Virus record (IMG/VR): IMGVR_UViG_3300030106_000192
Coordinates: 1-22,689 of that record
Strand: one strand, 5' to 3'
Source: a virus
DNA: 22,689 nucleotides
Shown here: positions 3,610 to 14,484 of the stretch, piece after piece
Position numbering within the stretch: position 1 is the stretch's first letter
Layout: each line of letters begins with the position of its first letter
The notes under the pieces: generated by a model
Told to the model about the DNA's origin: nothing
Database searches by the model: none
What the model saw: only the letters and a program-made list of their open reading frames with translations
Position numbers and translations under genes: made by a program

Positions 3610-4188
3610 ATGAGAAACCCTTTTATTATAGGAATTATAATAGCATCAATACTTATCTGGTTTCTTAATGGATTAATGAACTCTGCTCTTGGGGCAGATA
3701 CAAATACAGTTTCATCAACAGTCGTAACTAACAACACACCACCTACTGCTAACGCACCATCAGTTGTCGTAAATAATTCTGATATATGTAAAACTGCCGT
3801 AGCTGGTGCAGTACAAACTCAGATACTTGGAATTAGTTCTGGTGTTACAGTTCGTGATGAAAACTGTGAAAGACTTAAACTCTCTCGCTCTCTCTATGCT
3901 ATGGGCATGAAAGTAGCGGCAATCTCAACATTGTGTGCAGACTCTAGAGTCTTTGATGCGATGTGGAATGCTGGTACTTATTGCCCATACAATGCAAGTA
4001 TTGGCGAAGATGCTAAAAAAGGGTGGGAAGAAAATAAAGATAAAATACCAGAGGGCAGTTTAATATTTGCCAGCATGAAAGAAGATGAAAAAGAAAAACT
4101 TAAAAAGAAAAGAAAAGAAGATGGTAAAGCTAGCGGTTTGGAGGTTTTTCTTGCCCTTGCTACTTTTATGCTTTTACCACTCTTATAG
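3610..4188 (+). CDS. Exported/membrane-anchored protein of unknown function
   Basis: A 192-residue protein with an N-terminal hydrophobic segment (about 4-28, FIIGIIIASILIWFLNGL, then ALGA) that can be a signal peptide or anchor. A Thr/Val/Asn-rich low-complexity stretch follows (30-55). A conserved-looking core contains four Cys (DICKTAV, ENCERLK, TLCADS, TYCPY), so disulfides are possible. The region about 150-175 is strongly charged (KEDEKEKLKKKRKEDG). The end is again hydrophobic (LEVFLALATFMLLPLL). Two membrane segments with an exported Cys-containing core are therefore likely. The last 68 bases are shared with the signal peptide of the next gene in another frame. The function is not recognised. 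Confidence 0.65.
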   Translation: MRNPFIIGIIIASILIWFLNGLMNSALGADTNTVSSTVVTNNTPPTANAPSVVVNNSDICKTAVAGAVQTQILGISSGVTVRDENCERLKLSRSLYAMGMKVAAISTLCADSRVFDAMWNAGTYCPYNASIGEDAKKGWEENKDKIPEGSLIFASMKEDEKEKLKKKRKEDGKASGLEVFLALATFMLLPLL

Positions 4189-8172: not shown

Positions 8173-8175
8173 TTT

Positions 8176-8304
8176 ATGGTCAAAAAAAAAATTGAACAAC
8201 AAGTTACTAAATGGTGGCACGCATTCACAGAATTAAAATCTTGGGTGCAAATCATAATAGCTGTTGCAGTGGTTGTAGCGGCTCACAACTATATTCTTCA
8301 TTAG
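8176..8304 (+). CDS. Single-TM small protein (42 aa)
   Basis: The ATG at 8176 lies behind a strong SD (AAAGGAG, 8163-8169) and the frame ends with TAG 8302-8304. It begins MVKKKIEQQVTKWWHAFTEL and then has a hydrophobic helix (about 25-37, VQIIIAVAVVVAA). One membrane segment with a positively charged cytoplasmic N-terminus is expected. Following directly on the holin, it may be a lysis regulator, but no family is recognised. Confidence 0.55.
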   Translation: MVKKKIEQQVTKWWHAFTELKSWVQIIIAVAVVVAAHNYILH

Positions 8305-8307
8305 ATC

Positions 8308-8415
8308 ATGGCTAAGAAGAAAAAGAAAATGGTTGGTGGTTTGACCACGAAACAGAAAAAGTTGCCTAAAGCGTTACAGATGGCAATTTTGAAAAAACAA
8401 AAAAAGGGGAAATAA
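8308..8415 (+). CDS. Tiny Lys-rich protein (35 aa)
   Basis: ATG 8308 to TAA 8413-8415. The peptide starts MAKKKKKMVGGLTTKQKKL and ends ILKKQKKGK, with about 40% Lys. The motif GGLT.KQKKLPKALQ.AI is one I recall from small proteins of other marine phages, which favours a real gene over chance. It starts three bases after the previous stop. Nucleic-acid or capsid-interior binding is possible from charge. The function is unknown. Confidence 0.5.
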   Translation: MAKKKKKMVGGLTTKQKKLPKALQMAILKKQKKGK

Positions 8416-8416
8416 A

Positions 8417-8518
8417 ATGCCTTATCATACTGGCAAAGGCTCTCATTCAAAAGGCATGAAAAAATCTAAAAAATCAAAAATGCCTAAGATGAGCAAGCGT
8501 AAGAAGAAAAAAAGATAA
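8417..8518 (+). CDS. Tiny Lys/Ser-rich protein (33 aa)
   Basis: ATG 8417, preceded by the SD-like AGGGGAAATAAA, to TAA 8516-8518, which overlaps the next start by TAATG. It starts MPYHTGKGSHSKGMKKSKK and ends SKRKKKKR. It is extremely basic, with His, Gly and Ser and no hydrophobic core, so it is probably disordered without a partner. The overlap with the next gene supports translation. It is part of a run of four such small basic genes. Confidence 0.48.
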   Translation: MPYHTGKGSHSKGMKKSKKSKMPKMSKRKKKKR

Positions 8519-8700: not shown

Positions 8701-8846
8701 GTGGATTTACAACAACCTCTACAATTTCAGAGTTAATTAACAAAAGGCCCATAAATCGCAAAAGACGGGTTAAGATTACTCTTAAAGCACCCCAGAATCG
8801 CAATTTAAGGGCCACACAGCGACTTTTAAGGTCTAAGGCTACCTAG
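8697..8846 (+). CDS. Small basic protein at the convergent junction (49 aa)
   Basis: ATG 8697 overlaps the previous stop by ATGA; the frame ends with TAG 8844-8846. It begins MSGFTTTSTISELINKRPIN and continues with an Arg/Lys-rich body (RKRRVKITLKAPQNRN, LRATQRLLRSKAT). It is the last gene of the rightward late operon and overlaps the end of the oppositely transcribed nuclease gene by four bases. The function is not recognised. Confidence 0.5.
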   Translation: MSGFTTTSTISELINKRPINRKRRVKITLKAPQNRNLRATQRLLRSKAT

Positions 8847-8851
8847 TAGCC
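8837..8851. terminator. Hairpin at the convergent operon junction
   Basis: A perfect inverted repeat, GGCTAC-CTA-GTAGCC (6-bp stem, 3-base loop), spans the last codons of both converging genes, and the loop holds parts of both stop codons. A weaker outer pairing is possible between 8824-8831 (TTTTAAGG) and 8869-8877 (CCTTTAAAA). No clear U-tract follows on either strand, so this is terminator-like only and may instead slow or insulate converging transcripts. Confidence 0.35.
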
Positions 8852-9628
8852 CCAAACCTCTTGTCTTGCCTTTAAAACGGCCTCCTCTTTCCAAATCCAG
8901 TCATCTGGGTTCGGTATCAGCGTATTTTTAACATCATCTAAGGTATCAACAGATTTTAAGTAGTTGGCCATAGCTGAAATGATATGTTCACAAATTTTCA
9001 TAGGCTTATCATAATCAGTTAGGCTCATACTCTCAAACTTAGCACCACTTTTATTTGCTATCAGATACCAAAGCCTCTGATTTGCGTTAGTGCCTCTTTG
9101 ATAAATAGATTGTTGCATAGCATGAGACATAGATAAGCCGCTAGGTTTACGCTTGGTTGTTTTAAGGTCGATAAAGAAATCCTCTTTGGTTTGTTTATCT
9201 TCAAAATGAAAGTCGGTATATCCGATCAGCGGTACACCATGAATATTTAATTCTACTTTCTTTTGATATCCTAAAAGATTCCATTTAAAACCAAACTCTT
9301 TGAATGCTCGAACACCCTCGCCAAACAAAGGAATTAAATTATCTCGTTCCTCGTCAGTCTTTAGGTCATTGAACAAAGCACAGTTAGCGTTAAACTCATC
9401 ATACATCTTATCGACTGCCTCCTCATAGTCTATTCCATTGAGCCACATATTAAGACCAGACTCTACAGCTTTACCTCGTTCTGCCGCCGCCGATGATGCA
9501 AATTGATATCCGAAGATACGCCTCAATGCCCATCGTTCTCTGTTAAATGCAAACTCGTTGATATGACTAAACGATAAGGGCAATAAAGTTTTATCGCCCT
9601 CATCAAATTTTTTGAAATGCTCTATCAT
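8843..9628 (-). CDS. PD-(D/E)XK exonuclease (Cas4/RecB/lambda-exo-like)
   Basis: A 261-residue protein with the RecB/Cas4-type nuclease motifs in order: AERGKAVE (R51, G52, E56; the RGxxxH/E helix), GYTDF (Asp139), IDLKTT (Asp154 and Lys156, the DxK metal/catalytic pair) and QQSIY (Q172...Y176). There is no Fe-S Cys cluster as in Cas4. Such enzymes degrade DNA ends, usually for phage recombination or replication or host DNA breakdown. It is the last gene of the leftward operon; an OB-fold/SSB-like protein lies upstream in that operon. Its start overlaps the stop of the preceding gene by ATGA. Confidence 0.82.
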   Translation of the reverse strand: MIEHFKKFDEGDKTLLPLSFSHINEFAFNRERWALRRIFGYQFASSAAAERGKAVESGLNMWLNGIDYEEAVDKMYDEFNANCALFNDLKTDEERDNLIPLFGEGVRAFKEFGFKWNLLGYQKKVELNIHGVPLIGYTDFHFEDKQTKEDFFIDLKTTKRKPSGLSMSHAMQQSIYQRGTNANQRLWYLIANKSGAKFESMSLTDYDKPMKICEHIISAMANYLKSVDTLDDVKNTLIPNPDDWIWKEEAVLKARQEVWGY

Positions 9629-9885
9629 AGTAAATCCTTATATTTCTCAGTATGCTCGATATTGTTATCAAGTTCCACTATAAGATTTTTACATTGTTGA
9701 TAGATATTGCTCTCTTTGCCAAACCTTTTGATATAAAGTTCAAGACCAGTTTTTGTTAGTTCCATGATCTTAACATCTTCATTATGTTTATCAAAAGCCC
9801 GCATTTTATCCATATCAAGACCATCTTCCATTTCTGCGATTTGTTGATCTGATATGTTAAAATATTCTTTATCAGGTTTACTCAT
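9625..9885 (-). CDS. Hypothetical helical protein (86 aa)
   Basis: An acidic, helical 86-residue protein (MSKPDKEYFNISDQQIAEM, then GLELYIKRFGKESNIYQQC and ELDNNIEHTEKYKDLL). It has no membrane segment, signal peptide or recognisable motif. It lies between a small HTH gene and the exonuclease gene, overlapping the latter by four bases, so it is probably co-translated. A role in the recombination or regulation set is only positional. Confidence 0.6.
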   Translation of the reverse strand: MSKPDKEYFNISDQQIAEMEDGLDMDKMRAFDKHNEDVKIMELTKTGLELYIKRFGKESNIYQQCKNLIVELDNNIEHTEKYKDLL

Positions 9886-9887
9886 GG

Positions 9888-10091
9888 CTATTGCAACAAA
9901 CTATATTCTGCAAATGTTTTACCTTTACGGGTAACATTCTTAGTTATGATTGCGTTCCCCTGTTCTCTTAAATTAAATATTCTTGCACTTAATCTAAAAC
10001 AACCAAACTTTTTTAACGCTGTAAGTGGGGTTATTGTTTTACCTGATTTTAGATAATCAAGTATTTGTTGGTTTTGTGTTAGTTCTGGCAT
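9888..10091 (-). CDS. Small helix-turn-helix protein (HTH_39-like)
   Basis: A 67-residue protein with SD AAGGAG upstream (on the minus strand, at about 10097-10102). The pattern QNQQILDYLKSGKTITPLTA, a conserved LKKFGCFRLSARIFNLREQG and a final beta pair ending YSLLQ match the small winged-helix family found in phages (HTH_39-type, with ...AL..FG..RL.ARI..LR..G). It could bind DNA and control early genes or act in replication. It is not a classic CI/Cro-type repressor. Confidence 0.68.
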   Translation of the reverse strand: MPELTQNQQILDYLKSGKTITPLTALKKFGCFRLSARIFNLREQGNAIITKNVTRKGKTFAEYSLLQ

Positions 10092-10103
10092 AATGACTCC
10101 TTT

Positions 10104-10463
10104 CTATAAGTTATTTTTTGCCAATTCCCTTTCGTTTACGACCTTAGTTCTGAGGTCATCACGAAAAGCCTTAAAGGTCTCGTATCTAATTTTAGAACGA
10201 TTCCTTGCTTTAAGAGTTCCGCTGTATCTGTCGAAGAACTGCTTAAACTTGTTATCAGAATAAATGAGTCCATTTAATTCTGTTGTATTCTTATAACTGC
10301 TGTTACGAGTATGTTCCAGTGTTAATTCTGCTATAATCATTTTCTCTTCTTTTTTCATTAATTCAACTGCTGTATCATTATCTGAAAACTCTAAGCCTAA
10401 TTCTTCTTGCTTAGATGAAAGAATATTTGGGTTAAAATCTAAAGAATAAATATCAGATGCCAT
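10104..10463 (-). CDS. Hypothetical charged protein (119 aa)
   Basis: The start is set at ATG 10461-10463, because the SD AAGGAG (10474-10479 on the minus strand) sits 10 bases before it; an in-frame TTG at 10472 is only one base from that SD. The start is inside the end of the HNH gene. The protein begins MASDIYSLDFNPN and is rich in Lys, Glu, Asn and Arg, with helical segments (NDTAVELMKKEEKMIIAEL, FKAFRDDLRTKVV). No motif is recognised. It belongs to the same leftward operon as the nuclease genes. Confidence 0.6.
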   Translation of the reverse strand: MASDIYSLDFNPNILSSKQEELGLEFSDNDTAVELMKKEEKMIIAELTLEHTRNSSYKNTTELNGLIYSDNKFKQFFDRYSGTLKARNRSKIRYETFKAFRDDLRTKVVNERELAKNNL

Positions 10464-10755
10464 TTTGTTCAAACTCCTTTTCGTCTATTTTTTGTTGTAA
10501 TTCTTTTTTAAATTCTTCATTAACTTGTCGATTGCTATGTGCCAGAGTATGACATGGGCGGCAAACGGGAAATAAATTGTTTGGCACATTGTAAGTGTTT
10601 TTTTTACTGCCTCCAAAACCTTTAGATTTAAGATGATGTATTTCAACTGCTGGCCTTTGGTAGCAACCCCAACACTGGGGGATATCAACGATAGATAACC
10701 CCCAATAGTCAAAAAATATCTTTCTGTAATTTTTAGATATTCTTGAGGTTGTCAT
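10453..10755 (-). CDS. HNH endonuclease
   Basis: A 100-residue protein with a compact HNH signature: a Zn-binding pair CWGC (C28, C31), EIHHLKSKGFGG (H40, H41), VPNNLFPVC (N59/N60, C65) and C..CH (C68, H69), followed by HSN. It is predicted to nick or cut DNA in a metal-dependent way. It is not next to the terminase genes (about 5 kb away), so it is less likely to be the packaging-partner HNH and more likely a recombination nuclease or a free-standing homing-type enzyme. It overlaps both neighbours. Confidence 0.8.
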   Translation of the reverse strand: MTTSRISKNYRKIFFDYWGLSIVDIPQCWGCYQRPAVEIHHLKSKGFGGSKKNTYNVPNNLFPVCRPCHTLAHSNRQVNEEFKKELQQKIDEKEFEQNGI

Positions 10756-11215
10756 TAAATGCTCTCACTGCATTTTTAGTCAAGTCGCTTATATCTTCTA
10801 CACTGAAATGACCGCTACCCATAGATCGACCAACAACACCAGTAACAAAAATATCCATTCTCTGAGTATTGTTTTTGTTTATACCATTAGATATAGGCAT
10901 CGTTGTTGCTTGTTTAGCACTAGATAGTGATGGATATGTTTGACCATGCGTAGCCCCATAAGAACTGCTACTAGGCAAATCATCATCGAGTGTATGATTA
11001 TCAGCAATAGCAACATCTTTGACATTAGTATATGGATTGCCGCCTTTTGATGTTTTCACATTTATAACAGTGAAATCAATCGCCTCTCCTGATTGGGGTA
11101 AAGGGTTTATAACTTTTCCCCGTGCATATAACCTAGTGCCATCGACTAAATCTATTGCATAGTTTGGTTTACCATCTTCGCTATTGTCAAAGACTTTATC
11201 AACTATATTAGACAT
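10733..11215 (-). CDS. Putative OB-fold / ssDNA-binding-like protein
   Basis: A 160-residue protein. The N-terminal 70 residues look like a five-strand beta barrel (YAIDLVDGTRLYARGKVINP, then AIDFTVINVKTSKGGNPYTNV). The middle (about 75-115) is Ser/Thr/Gln/Asn-rich and probably disordered. The C-terminus (about 118-160) has IFVTGVVGRSMGSGHF and a helical ending, seen in phage proteins found in recombination or replication operons. There is no acidic DDDIPF-type tail as in host SSB. An SSB-like role beside the exonuclease fits but is inferred. Its leader is of the AAT-repeat type. Confidence 0.5.
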   Translation of the reverse strand: MSNIVDKVFDNSEDGKPNYAIDLVDGTRLYARGKVINPLPQSGEAIDFTVINVKTSKGGNPYTNVKDVAIADNHTLDDDLPSSSSYGATHGQTYPSLSSAKQATTMPISNGINKNNTQRMDIFVTGVVGRSMGSGHFSVEDISDLTKNAVRAFNDNLKNI

Positions 11216-11245
11216 TGTAGTTTTCCTTTCTATTATTATTATTTG
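11216..11245 (-). promoter_or_regulatory. AAT-repeat leader with SD of the SSB-like gene
   Basis: Read on the minus strand, the bases before ATG 11215 are an AATAATAAT tract, then GAAAGGAAA and ACTACA before ATG. The same arrangement precedes two more genes of this operon (starts at 13108 and 13289). The SD-like core is AAGGA. The A/T tract probably keeps the ribosome site unstructured. Confidence 0.5.
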
Positions 11246-11700
11246 TTAATGACATTATAACCTCTTCCCTCTAAACAAACATTAATTAAATCTTGTCTAG
11301 TTTTAAGTTTGGGAGAAAGCCATAACACCCTCCAACGCAGACCATTATATACCGCTTTTGATTTATCAACCAAAGCATTGGTATTATCTTCAACAATACT
11401 TTTGCAAGTATAATAGTCATCGTGATATCGTTCCGCCGTCCCCTCAATATTGGCGGAACTTTTGCCCCTACTATCTACTATTGGCGTGGTGCTACACCCA
11501 GCAAGGAACACAGCACCATATATAAGTAAAAGCAAAACCATTGATACCCTAAAAATAGACTTATAGTTAGTTTTCTTTTTAGGTAAAACTCTTGTTACCC
11601 GATAGAGTGGAGTCTTATCTTTATCCATCGAGTAACCGATTACCTCCCTATGTTCTATGCCATAGGGAAATAAAGTTTTTGATTTTTTAGCTTTTTTCAT
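11239..11700 (-). CDS. Lipoprotein with long N-terminal extension
   Basis: A 153-residue protein with a hydrophobic segment (about 52-66, VSMVLLLLIYGAVF) ending in a canonical lipobox LAGC (Cys69), then STTPIVDSRGKS and a domain with YYTCKSI...C and a GRGYNVINK ending. That last domain is of a type recalled from small marine bacterial and phage lipoproteins. Unusually, about 50 mostly basic residues precede the membrane segment. The start at 11700 has a usable SD (AAAGAG) and lies inside the end of the GHKL gene. A shorter form from a later Met is possible. It may be an outer-envelope protein, for example in superinfection exclusion. Confidence 0.65.
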   Translation of the reverse strand: MKKAKKSKTLFPYGIEHREVIGYSMDKDKTPLYRVTRVLPKKKTNYKSIFRVSMVLLLLIYGAVFLAGCSTTPIVDSRGKSSANIEGTAERYHDDYYTCKSIVEDNTNALVDKSKAVYNGLRWRVLWLSPKLKTRQDLINVCLEGRGYNVINK

Positions 11701-13108
11701 TGGACTCTTTCATAATTAATTTAGCACCAATTTCACAAAGACCATCGTAATATCTTTCGCTTAGATGATCGCCTGAATACCAGTGTCCAAACTCATGGAT
11801 AATCAACTCTAATATCCTCTGTTTGTTATTAGTAAGATCAAACCATTTCTTACCCAACATCTTATAAGAGAACTGTAAGTTACCTCTACCATAAGTTGCT
11901 AAAGCACCATTACCATTATGAATACTTACAGAACAAGAAGAGTTAAATAAATATAAATGCAATTCTTTTGCATAATCTATTATCTCTTTCATTCCATCAG
12001 TATAGGTATCAATTTCTTTAGCACCGCCAGTCAAAGTAGGACTAGCATATTGGCCAACAGAACCAGATGGTCTAGCAAACTCAGTATGCTCTTCTCTAGT
12101 TCTTTTGATATTGTCCCAAACTTTAGAATTGAAACTACCACCAGTAATAACATTCACATCATCTGCAAATGCTTTTTTGTTAGCCTCATGGTCAGTTGGG
12201 TCAAAAACCACAGCGTCCTCTCCATATCTAGATTCAACAACATCTTTAACTGCATCAACATCAGCATCTTCAAGAGCCTCAGTTACCCAAGCAGATTTAG
12301 ATTGTTCCTCAGTCAAATCAGATGATGTATGATTGAGAACATAAGTCTTTAGCTTTTTTAGATAGCTAGGACTTACATTGTCTCTATCTTTATTGAGAGG
12401 TATCTTTTGATCGACATTTATTGAAAAGCCAATATCAGTCTCAACAACAGGAATACCCATTTCATAAATAAAATGTTCATCTGTTTTGAACAACTCGATA
12501 TTAGTATTTCTTGATGATCTAACTAAATTACCCTCATCATCAGAAACAACAGTAGGCAAGTTCTCAGTAAAAGATTTGTATGTTTCTGGTCGAGAAACTA
12601 AATCTCCATTTACTAAGTATTCAACACCCATAGGTGGAATAATCATTTTTGCCTTATCTGTAAGGTCAGCTATTTCTTCATAAGTTAATTTTAACTCGCC
12701 AGAAAAAATAGTTCCTAGTTCAGTTTTTACTTTTGTTTTATTTCTTGAACCATCTTTTGCAAAGATAACTGAACCAGTAGTAGATTTTATGTTTGCAAGA
12801 TCAAACATCGCAAGAGCAAATTTTTCTCCAACATTAAATCTGCCTCTTTTTTCTACGATACCTTTTTTGTAGCTTGGTGCAAACATAGTATAAGAATCTT
12901 TTAAATCCTTAAAACCATCTTTGCTATTATCCATGCAATCAATATAACTTTTGTAAGATGTTGTTTTACCAATATCTAATTTGCATAAAGTTATATCTTC
13001 ATCAAAAGAATTACTTACCAATTCCTTAATGATAAAGAATTTATCTTTCTCACTTTGGACTTGTTGCAATCCTTTTTTATCTATCTCAAACCAATTATTT
13101 TTTTGCAT
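11687..13108 (-). CDS. GHKL-type ATPase fused to a C-terminal zincin-like HExxH domain
   Basis: A 473-residue protein with two recognisable parts. Residues about 20-280 look like a GHKL (Hsp90/MutL/gyrase-B type) ATPase with transducer: N-box KELVSNSFDE (E29, N33, D36), a DNSKDGF box (D60, G65), a GRFNVGEK box (G89, G94), and the transducer-like PLNKDRDNVS. Residues about 285-400 are a charged linker. Near the end, HEFGHWYSGDH (H438, E439, H442, H448) fits a zinc protease HExxHxxxxxH pattern, with flanking helices. The protein lacks a signal peptide and is probably cytoplasmic. ATP-driven opening or remodelling with protein cleavage is an inference. The leader is of the AAT-repeat type. Confidence 0.75.
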   Translation of the reverse strand: MQKNNWFEIDKKGLQQVQSEKDKFFIIKELVSNSFDEDITLCKLDIGKTTSYKSYIDCMDNSKDGFKDLKDSYTMFAPSYKKGIVEKRGRFNVGEKFALAMFDLANIKSTTGSVIFAKDGSRNKTKVKTELGTIFSGELKLTYEEIADLTDKAKMIIPPMGVEYLVNGDLVSRPETYKSFTENLPTVVSDDEGNLVRSSRNTNIELFKTDEHFIYEMGIPVVETDIGFSINVDQKIPLNKDRDNVSPSYLKKLKTYVLNHTSSDLTEEQSKSAWVTEALEDADVDAVKDVVESRYGEDAVVFDPTDHEANKKAFADDVNVITGGSFNSKVWDNIKRTREEHTEFARPSGSVGQYASPTLTGGAKEIDTYTDGMKEIIDYAKELHLYLFNSSCSVSIHNGNGALATYGRGNLQFSYKMLGKKWFDLTNNKQRILELIIHEFGHWYSGDHLSERYYDGLCEIGAKLIMKESNEKS

Positions 13109-13289
13109 TGTTTTCTCCTTTATTATTATTAGGTTTGTTGATTGAACTCTTCATAACTAACTTACCATTGTTATCATAAACAGCGGTAGAGTTATCAAGA
13201 TGCGTAATTTTAAAAAGATGTTCGACCTTATCATTTTCGATAACATCAAACTTTTGTATCTTCTTAAAAAGTCTATTTAGTTTTTGCAT
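13095..13289 (-). CDS. Small hypothetical protein, first gene of the leftward operon
   Basis: A 64-residue protein (MQKLNRLFKKIQKFDVIEND, then a beta-type middle HLFKITHLDNSTAVYDNNGK and a polar Asn/Lys-rich tail). It has no motif, membrane segment or signal peptide. It has a strong AAGGAG SD behind an AAT tract, and its end overlaps the start of the GHKL-zincin gene by 14 bases. As first gene after the divergent control region it is probably an early product; the coupling suggests a partner or regulator of the ATPase, but this is only positional. Confidence 0.6.
   Translation of the reverse strand: MQKLNRLFKKIQKFDVIENDKVEHLFKITHLDNSTAVYDNNGKLVMKSSINKPNNNKGENNAKK
13109..13131 (-). promoter_or_regulatory. 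AAT-repeat leader with SD of the GHKL-zincin gene
   Basis: On the minus strand the leader reads TAATAATAATA, AAGGAG (13115-13120), then AAAACA before ATG 13108. It lies inside the coding end of the upstream 64-residue gene, where it encodes part of the Asn/Lys-rich tail. It has the same layout as the leaders before 13289 and 11215. Confidence 0.5.
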
Positions 13290-13316
13290 TGTAGTCTCCT
13301 TATTATTATTATTATT
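13290..13316 (-). promoter_or_regulatory. AAT-repeat leader with SD of the first leftward gene
   Basis: On the minus strand the leader reads AATAATAATAATAAT, AAGGAG (13296-13301), then ACTACA before ATG 13289. It is the longest AAT tract of the three related leaders. The adjoining run of AT dinucleotides (about 13319-13329) could contain a -10 promoter element, but no good -35 box was found at the right spacing. Confidence 0.5.
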
Positions 13317-13330
13317 TAATATATATATAA

Positions 13331-13348
13331 CCTACTAAATTTCTTAGG
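13331..13348. promoter_or_regulatory. Operator-like imperfect palindrome
   Basis: The 18 bases CCTACTAAATTTCTTAGG have dyad symmetry of the form CCTA-nn-AAATTT-nn-TAGG, with 14 of 18 positions symmetric. The site lies about 42 bases upstream of the first leftward gene, next to an AT-rich stretch that could hold its promoter, so a repressor or activator could bind here. The small HTH protein at 9888 is one candidate, without direct evidence. Confidence 0.4.
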
Positions 13349-13569
13349 TTTTGTATATAGTTAATTTACATTAAAAAACCCTTGATTTCTAACGATTTTT
13401 CACTAAGAATTAAAATAGTTCTTTTCTTAGCTAGGCATTGTAGCAATCTGAACTAGGTAGATAACCCATTTCATCTACCGATTCGAGGGGGTAAGTTTAG
13501 TCATTGAAATGCTTTTTTCGCTTATCCCCTCTAATAAAATAATTTTACCAAAAAATAATCTTAGGTTTT
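13342..13569. repeat. 11-base direct repeat flanking the control region
   Basis: TCTTAGGTTTT occurs at 13342-13352 and again at 13559-13569, in the same orientation. A partial copy, TTCTTAG, lies at 13424-13430. One copy overlaps the palindrome near the leftward start and the other lies just before the candidate promoter of the rightward operon, which suggests a common binding site. The middle of the given interval is not part of the repeat. Confidence 0.4.
13403..13531 (+). ncRNA. Candidate structured RNA or origin: consecutive stem-loops
   Basis: Four hairpins follow each other. SL1 pairs CTAAGAA (13403-13409) with TTCTTAG (13424-13430). A small one pairs ATTG with CAAT (13437-13447). SL3 pairs GGTAGAT (13456-13462) with ATCTACC (13473-13479), loop 10 bases. 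SL4 pairs GAGGGGGTAAG (13485-13495) with CTTATCCCCTC (13521-13531), 11 bp with one G-U pair if read as + strand RNA. The G-U wobble favours a + strand transcript slightly. The G/C-rich arms stand out from the AT-rich surroundings. It could be a leader RNA, an sRNA or part of an origin; no known RNA family was recognised. Confidence 0.35.
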
Positions 13570-13571
13570 TC

Positions 13572-13600
13572 TTGAAACTCTAAAGAAAAAAAATTAAACA
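13572..13600 (+). promoter_or_regulatory. Weak sigma70-like promoter candidate for the rightward operon
   Basis: TTGAAA (13572-13577) is followed after 17 bases by TAAACA (13595-13600). The -35 box is close to TTGACA; the -10 box is poor. The A-rich spacer and position 35 bases before the chosen start of the replication gene are suitable. In such AT-rich DNA, matches of this quality arise by chance. Confidence 0.25.
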
Positions 13601-13635
13601 TAGTAAATATAAATTGTTCAGAAATGGGGGTAACA

Positions 13636-14484
13636 ATGTTTATAGACGAGAACTCTAAACCTAAAGAAAAACTCAAAGCATGGTATTTATTTACCGAAGA
13701 TTTTACTGCTGGCACATCACATTTAACAAATGAAGAGATAGGAATTTACATTAGATTACTATGTTGGAATTGGAATAAACGCTGTGTTGGTTTACCTAAT
13801 AATATTGATACAATAAAACGAATCGCTGTTTGCTTTACTGATAGCGAGAAACTTTCATGTGAAAAGATACTAAATGAATTTTTTGTTTTAGTAGAAAATC
13901 ATTATCAAAACGAGAGACAGCTACAAGAATATTTATATATTCGTAAGAGAATAGATGCCTCTAAAGTAAATGGTAAGTTGGGAGGGCGGCCAAAAAAACC
14001 TAGCGACAACCCCCCTACCCCTACCTCTACCCCTACCAATACATCTACTAATAAATACTCTCCAAAGTTTAACAAGTTCTGGGATAAGATCAGCAACAAG
14101 GTCAGTAAGGGAACAGCAGAAAAGAACTTCAATAAGATCGAGAAAGATTGGTTAGATAAACCAGAGCAATTAGCAGATATGTATAATTCTTATTATGATT
14201 CGGTTAAGGATAAAGAATTTGCCAAACAGCCCGCATTCTGGCTATCAGCAAAGAAATATTTAGATGTTGTTCCTAAGAAAGAATATAATTTTGGTATCAC
14301 TATAACTAAAGATGAGGACAGAGTTAAAATGTTTACCGATGCTATAAAATATAACAAAGTAACTAGGTTTATTAAAGATTATGCCGCTAAAAATAAAGAT
14401 GTGATTGATATGGGCATAAGGAAAGGATTTATTACAAAAGAACAGGCTATTAATGATTTAGGCATGGTAAACGAATATAAATGA
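13636..14484 (+). CDS. DUF1376-type replication protein (putative initiator)
   Basis: The start is set at ATG 13636 (282 residues), with the SD-like GGGGGT (13626-13631) about 5 bases upstream; an in-frame ATG at 13624 adds four residues but has no SD. Residues about 15-120 match the DUF1376 family: AWYLFTEDFTAGTSHLTNEE, GIYIRLLCWNWNK, a QNERQLQEYL region and KVNGKLGGRPKK. A Pro/Thr linker (about 126-138) follows. The C-terminal half has FNKFWDKISNKVSKGTAEKNF and QPAFWLSAKKYLD, as in phage replication proteins. A lambda O-like initiator or helicase-loading role is inferred. It overlaps the methyltransferase gene by ATGA. Confidence 0.7.
   Translation: MFIDENSKPKEKLKAWYLFTEDFTAGTSHLTNEEIGIYIRLLCWNWNKRCVGLPNNIDTIKRIAVCFTDSEKLSCEKILNEFFVLVENHYQNERQLQEYLYIRKRIDASKVNGKLGGRPKKPSDNPPTPTSTPTNTSTNKYSPKFNKFWDKISNKVSKGTAEKNFNKIEKDWLDKPEQLADMYNSYYDSVKDKEFAKQPAFWLSAKKYLDVVPKKEYNFGITITKDEDRVKMFTDAIKYNKVTRFIKDYAAKNKDVIDMGIRKGFITKEQAINDLGMVNEYK
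14013..14048 (+). repeat. Period-6 repeat in the linker of the replication gene
   Basis: Six hexamers ending in TAC follow each other: CCCTAC, CCCTAC, CTCTAC, CCCTAC, CAATAC, ATCTAC. They encode alternating Thr with Pro, Ser or Asn. The C-rich strand composition is unlike the AT-rich surroundings. It may simply code a flexible linker, but iteron-like arrays inside initiator genes are known from the lambda O gene. Confidence 0.6.

Follow-up and report, generated by a model that had tools for sequence, protein, structure and literature searches.

What is the run of hairpins between two divergent operons of this virus: a regulatory RNA, and if so with which targets, or a hairpin-bearing replication origin? 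The window, that is, the whole 22,689-nt stretch analysed here, is part of a 31.5-kb virus record. By sequence its source contig is pelagiphage-like, the terminase of this phage being 55-56% identical to those of the isolated pelagiphages HTVC026P and HTVC111P; the hosts of pelagiphages belong to one of the ocean's most abundant groups of bacteria. Leftward and rightward operons diverge from the gap at 13290-13635, which an earlier note had called the only large intergenic region. By our own ORF calls it is the largest gap between genes in the window, but not the only one, since 8173-8517 is nearly empty as well, its sole content being a possibly spurious 49-aa minus-strand ORF. The rightward genes begin with a DUF1376 primosomal protein, followed by a DNA methylase, the terminase and other genes, and no tRNA or tmRNA was found in the window. 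Features are listed in Table 1.

Table 1. Features of the RNA element, its flanking operons and its candidate target sites (window coordinates).
Feature	Position	Strand	Remarks
Leftward operon	8843..13289	-	accessory genes, HNH nuclease, winged-HTH protein, PD-(D/E)XK nuclease
First leftward gene	13095-13289	-	leftward operon
CTACAATGTC, start-codon region of gene 10733-11215	11211..11220	-	8 bp to loop 1, 10 with one G-U
CTACAATGC, start-codon region of first leftward gene (13095-13289)	13286..13294	-	9-bp complement of loop 1
Promoter-like TTGATT-N17-AAGAAT	13382..13410	+	predicted RNA 5' end about 13416-13418
H1: outer helix TAGTTC 13416-13421 / GAACTA 13450-13455, inner GCTA 13430-13433 / TAGC 13441-13444	13416..13455	+	formed in fold from 13416
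Loop 1 GGCATTGTAG, last 3 bases within inner stem	13434..13443	+	antisense to CUACAAUG(C) at leftward start codons
H2: stem GGTAGAT 13456-13462 / ATCTACC 13473-13479	13456..13479	+	carries loop 2
Loop 2 AACCCATTTC	13463-13472	+	antisense to primosomal gene's ribosome-binding site
H3: G/C-rich stem GAGGGGGTAAG 13485-13495 / CTTATCCCCTC 13521-13531, one G-U, U-rich loop	13485..13531	+	
Terminator-like ACCAAAAAATAATCTTAGGTTTTT	13547..13570	+	read by eye; weak possible 3' end of a separate RNA
GAAATGGG, primosomal gene ribosome-binding region	13621..13628	+	8-bp complement of loop 2
Primosomal / replication initiation protein (DUF1376), first rightward gene	13636..14484	+	PF07120 E 3.9e-12; phrog_9327 primosomal protein E 5.8e-21

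The stem-loops are real and form part of a conserved plus-strand RNA element of ~115 nt (13416-13531), placed between the two divergent operons just downstream of a promoter-like sequence. In an alignment of 25 distinct sequences, window included, which was fitted to the covariance model and therefore favours structure, 97.0% of pair cells are kept and both sides have changed in 19 of the 26 pairs. None of 500 shuffles matches this alignment on any of the five measures; its covariation score of 0.475 compares with 0.182 for shuffles, and slid controls score no more than 0.135, with 36-54% of their cells paired instead of 97%. Each helix contributes, namely the outer (93.8% of cells paired, both-side changes in 5/6 pairs) and inner (91.5%, 4/4) helices of H1, H2 (98.9%, 5/7) and H3 (99.6%, 5/9). 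The seed alignment, made by sequence alone, holds five pairs with both-side changes, a number that 23 of 500 shuffles reach, and 17 cells with such changes, which none of 500 reaches, while its further pair types fall below those of the shuffles (8 vs 10.1). Paired cells across the family comprise 37 G-U and one A-C, which marks the plus-strand RNA as the constrained molecule; what the earlier note had remarked of the single G-U pair in its fourth stem-loop, that it needs plus-strand RNA, thus holds family-wide. All four inverted repeats that it had described exist, and three (SL2, SL3 and SL4) are conserved and compensated among relatives. SL1 (CTAAGAA 13403-13409 / TTCTTAG 13424-13430) is not: it overlaps the −10 box of the promoter-like sequence, where most relatives read CTAATAAT, and the true first helix is the outer helix of H1, which had been missed.

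Folding of the plus strand of 13395-13540 was better than that of all 200 dinucleotide shuffles (z −3.76), and that of the minus strand was equalled by one in 200 (z −2.66). The former fold lacks the conserved outer helix, with which the upstream flank competes; folded from the predicted start (13416-13533), the RNA adopts exactly the conserved helices (z −3.82, 0/200 shuffles). The −10 box of the promoter-like sequence occupies 13405-13410. A TTG-N3-N17-box pattern, whose fixed 17-nt spacer was chosen after viewing the sequences, lies upstream of 24 of 26 elements, with 0.96/26 expected from mononucleotide shuffles, and a looser pattern matches in only 12/26. In all 24 but L045 the promoter-like sequence ends at most two bases from the aligned element start. 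Mechanical scans of the window listed neither the promoter-like sequence at 13382..13410, by consensus, nor a terminator at 13547..13570. A second promoter-like sequence, TTGAAA-N17-TAAACA, precedes the primosomal gene at 13572-13600 and is kept, by eye, in relatives without an intervening ORF. H3 lies a few bases before a start codon in L020, and in L029, L035, L045 and L049 the start codon of the next gene falls in or at its 3' arm; in the type B member tested (types are defined below), that gene encodes a VRR-NUC nuclease. With the next start codon thus placed in types B and C, their element looks like an mRNA leader, not a free sRNA, and H3 may itself control the next gene there.

The search with the primosomal protein returned 248 related stretches, the best 80 of which served as loci, and a pattern search gave 25 stretches with the type A core. 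The covariance model was built from 13 sequences (alignment A3), obtained from the 23 rows of A1 by leaving out the divergent rows L020, L024, L028 and L029 (giving A2) and then L011, L012, L015, L017, L030 and L083; L023 was never in A1-A3. Alignment A5 comprises 26 of 74 sources, excluding L007, L023, L027, L028 and apparent copies of kept loci, as judged by equal score. In relatives that are much more diverged, the model locates the element ahead of this gene again and in unchanged orientation. Scores of the most distant carriers (L052, 23.1 bits; L045, 21.3) overlap those of opposite-strand matches (L007, 22.5; L028, 20.4), so that these two rest on position, structure and loop logic. Searched over whole records, the model recovered the element in 15 of 30, with no match in the 10 chosen as non-carriers. 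Among the 20 chosen carriers it missed G005, G010, G013 and G017, whose elements were found through their loci, and G011, where the element is cut off at the contig end. A weak second match occurs at G003:C1:30082-30191 (11.7 bits, E 0.19), and the element at L023:1594-1707 is devoid of the promoter and the 5' strand of H1 and keeps loops 1 and 2. Prokaryote genomes yielded no match to the element pattern and no relative of the primosomal protein; among isolated phages, blastn of the region gave, in the best 20 of 24 records, only 30-39-base matches, none of them to a Pelagibacter phage.

Loop 2 (ACCCAUUUC) is complementary to the site (GAAAUGGG) of the rightward primosomal gene. Among 41 start regions in the window, this one forms the most stable duplex with loop 2 (−13.0 kcal/mol); a run of equal length occurs at one other start, and nine of 5000 random contig 10-mers reach an 8-nt run with the primosomal start region. 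Upstream of the primosomal gene, the 80 relatives and the window display three loop/site pairs: type A, window included, combines loop ACCCAUUUC or ACCCAUUUU with site GAAAUGGG, type B loop UGACCUCCAUA or UGACCUCCAAA with site AUGGAGGU(CA), and type C loop GCCUCCAAC with site GUUGGAGGC. With few exceptions, relatives with other loops carry correspondingly changed sites.

Start sites were then compared across 26 contigs (11 of type A, eight of B, one of C and six without the element), G011, G025 and G028-G030 being excluded, G013, G014 and G026 counted without their last 0.4-1.9 kb, and the window standing for its own record. At a threshold of at least 8 nt, primosomal starts match loop 2 of their own type only (A 9/9, using the window loop for all type A contigs; B 8/8; C 1/1), and all cross-type counts for these 18 starts are 0. 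Among the starts, that of G009 was added by pattern and that of G020 was called upstream of the true ATG; G014 is a fragment without the primosomal gene. None of five primosomal starts from contigs without the element has an 8-nt match, two matching the type B loop at 7. Scored against its own loop, each contig gives a run of 7-8 nt if it is of type A and of 9-11 nt if it is of type B or C. The primosomal start ranks first of 21-62 starts by duplex energy in nine of 10 type A contigs and second in the remaining one, with other starts in several contigs having runs as long; in type B, whose loops resemble a generic anti-Shine-Dalgarno sequence, it ranks only first to seventh.

Loop 1 (GGCAUUGUAG) is complementary to start codons of leftward genes (CUACAAUGC). 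Allowing one mismatch at most, it matches nothing else in the window but two leftward start sites; four of 100 shuffles have as many matches, and 14 of 5000 random 10-mers match as many leftward starts of the window. The strongest partner of the loop 1 region (−17.0) is the leftward start at 9885, which has no box, and unbiased 8-mer scans gave scattered matches outside the loops too. In type A contigs TACAATG stands at the start codon of 22/136 minus-strand and 0/328 plus-strand ORFs, the leftward fractions being diluted by spurious minus-strand ORFs from a crude ORF caller. The corresponding counts are 0/114 and 0/250 in type B, 0/54 in type C and 1/314 in contigs without the element; 2/138 minus-strand ORFs of type A contigs match the type B loop at 8 nt or more. 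Six relatives without the element (G021-G024, G026 and G027) have few minus-strand ORFs (20/314), and among relatives the element and a divergent leftward operon co-occur. The invariance of loop 1 is partly due to selection, as its motif was used to gather the type A elements.

Comparison of orthologues, in which G022 offered no anchor, showed the box switching with loop type. The MSNIVDKV family carries it in 11/11 type A and 0/9 type B/C members, and MYYNEK has GGAGGTC in type B (2/2) and GGAGGC in type C (1/1); as an exception, GGAGGTC also occurs in another family, in two type A members. First leftward genes, many of them mutually unrelated, bear TACAATG in 17 of 21 type A cases and ACAATGC in one, the box being absent in three, and GGAGGTC, matching their own loop UGACCUCC, in 9/9 of type B. 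That of type C has two possible starts, of which the scored one carries the type A TACAATG, not the expected box. Among minus-strand starts with a Shine-Dalgarno-like motif, codon 2 begins with C in 29/82 of type A and 0/63 of type B, an excess indicating that the loop match extends into the coding sequence. Phylogeny leaves perhaps two or three independent loop changes, which together with cassette flanks means that these fractions are not independent samples. This antisense relation to both operons had not been foreseen.

We favour, at a probability of about three in four, a leader-derived antisense RNA that would repress the leftward early genes and the replication gene by loop pairing, and so probably switches off early genes through their messages. 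Pairing is suggested because loops and start sites change together among relatives; like a base-pairing sRNA, the element has a seed that is complementary to its targets and coevolves with them. Of the options raised in the earlier note, a regulatory leader RNA or phage sRNA is supported by computation, through the conserved structure with plus-strand covariation, the promoter-like sequence at a nearly fixed place before 24/26 elements, and loops complementary to ribosome-binding sites. From sequence we infer transcription, timing, action in trans and repression rather than activation. Rightward transcription from a promoter of its own would make the element the 5' part of the rightward transcript, and a separate or processed RNA of about 115-155 nt might arise as well; the element would fold into three hairpins. 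Loop 1 would act in trans on leftward early genes by pairing over their start-codon regions. Loop 2 would bind the primosomal gene's ribosome-binding site, either in cis or in trans, and in other subtypes it would serve leftward genes and the primosomal gene alike. By excluding ribosomes, such pairing would let rightward promoter activity lower leftward gene expression and damp replication initiation.

The element might instead be a purely cis-acting leader controlling only the rightward mRNA, in which the RNA folds back so that loop 2 meets the ribosome-binding site of the primosomal gene and H3 the next start codon, the leftward matches of loop 1 implying no action in trans. Its position 5' of rightward genes in the carriers looked at fits this account, as does H3 adjoining or overlapping the next start codon in types B and C; however, loop 1 and the type B loop 2 match, type-specifically, leftward mRNAs belonging to the other transcript, and we regard a cis-only role as unlikely. 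Less probable still, the leftward boxes could reflect nothing more than flanks common to cassettes or a consensus of start sites, with the RNA serving another purpose such as protein binding. A longer upstream context, ATAATAATAAGGAG, is indeed common to the first leftward genes of type A, and gene cassettes swapped together with common flanks can account for much of the recurrence of the leftward box. On the other hand, boxes that follow the loop type in orthologues, reach into codon 2 and are missing from rightward genes do not behave as mere flanks; the primosomal site covaries with the loop too, and a protein site common to both would recur as an identical, not a complementary, sequence. 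An RNA antiterminator acting on RNA polymerase in the manner of HK022 put would suit hairpins directly downstream of an early promoter, but it leaves loop-target complementarity unexplained and is at odds with loop sequences that differ between types; we judge it very improbable. Least probable is the DNA replication origin considered in the earlier note, which the intergenic position next to a replication gene recommends; the 37:1 G-U bias, compensatory RNA covariation, a promoter-like sequence at nearly fixed distance and loop-target coevolution, unexplained by an origin, speak against it.

The antisense reading invites comparison with known systems. A covariance search against RNA families, which the earlier note had proposed, found no Rfam 15 family at the gathering threshold in the window and eight relatives, and a permissive search of the window gave five matches, all outside the element. 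RNAIII of Staphylococcus aureus and alphaproteobacterial anti-Shine-Dalgarno loop sRNAs have loops complementary to the Shine-Dalgarno regions of several mRNAs; these RNAs are chromosomal, unlike the phage element, and our literature search for the alphaproteobacterial ones found no paper. By analogy, the element would work like the C4 RNA of P1/P7 while not being a member of its family, as the C4 model (RF01695) had no match in the window and eight relatives and is not among the five permissive ones. RNase P processing of a longer transcript is another mark of the C4 family. Passages of PMC5320573 describe C4 as three stem-loops cut from a larger transcript, whose loops a' and b' pair with the target mRNA, b' partly covering the ribosome-binding site, and whose loop and target differ together between P1 and P7. 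The element likewise has three stem-loops in a phage RNA, loops and targets that change together, and two loops complementary to target mRNA, one at a ribosome-binding site; unlike C4, whose loops act jointly on one target, each loop has its own targets, several leftward genes for one and the replication gene for the other. No integrase was found in 11 records, some possibly fragments, and control of lysogeny is thus not expected. According to one section of the 2025 phage sRNA review PMC12197685, OOP and sar of lambdoid phages repress phage genes by pairing, sar blocking translation initiation of ant; each has one target (cII and ant, respectively), whereas the element has short loops and several candidate targets. 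As treated in that section, PreS has a host mRNA as its target and VpdS affects the mRNA levels of phage and host, both being Hfq-bound and phage-encoded regulatory RNAs, as is proposed for the element in the latter respect; the abstract and this section describe no pelagiphage RNA (PMC12197685). On Hfq in the host, passages of PMC2704228 name the protein only within a reference.

A possible parallel in a cultured phage came from HTVC111P. Across four pelagiphage isolates, in whole or in part, the covariance model gave no convincing match (best E 0.29). A hairpin with loop CCUCUCUCU lies in HTVC111P (L225:3960-4060) directly before gp12, the first rightward gene; it has no homology to the element by the covariance model. 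Complements of at least 7 nt to CCUCUCUCUCC occur in the start regions of four of 13 minus-strand genes (three GGAGAGA and one AGAGAGG, the latter far upstream), a result that five of 3000 random genome 11-mers equal, and the start region of the first rightward gene is complementary as well (AGAGAGA). By sequence, the hairpin is a possible independent analogue of the element; HTVC112P had no loop-target match of 7 nt or more. An ATG preceded by GGAGAGA near 3762 lies within gp11 of HTVC111P (L225:3557-3790), whose annotated start may be too far upstream.

If the proposed antisense role is correct, one small RNA switch governs both replication and a variable set of early genes, with a specificity that can be read from sequence; the coevolving loop/target types would be ready-made compensatory mutants, and the idea can be put to the test in an isolated phage that has a similar hairpin. 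Among the open-access matches listed (titles and abstract openings), no paper deals with regulatory RNA in pelagiphages, and no paper among the matches listed, likewise by title and abstract opening, describes such a two-loop antisense RNA. More speculatively, and at a low probability, the RNA might define incompatibility groups among ocean phages, one loop type shutting down early genes and replication in any co-infecting phage whose ribosome-binding sites match. Phages of other loop types would then escape, new accessory genes would join the regulon by acquiring a box, diversification of loop-target pairs would resemble that of plasmid copy-control RNAs, and HTVC111P would harbor an independently evolved version.

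Among the leftward genes of the window, the one at 11687-13108 (minus strand) encodes a 473-aa protein that combines a metallopeptidase-like HEFGHWYSGDH motif with an N-terminal ELVSNSFDED stretch, the latter reminiscent of GHKL ATPases. A Pfam search returned no match for this protein; a relative with 39% identity over 99% of its length is encoded by the 485-kb uncultured phage LR745208.
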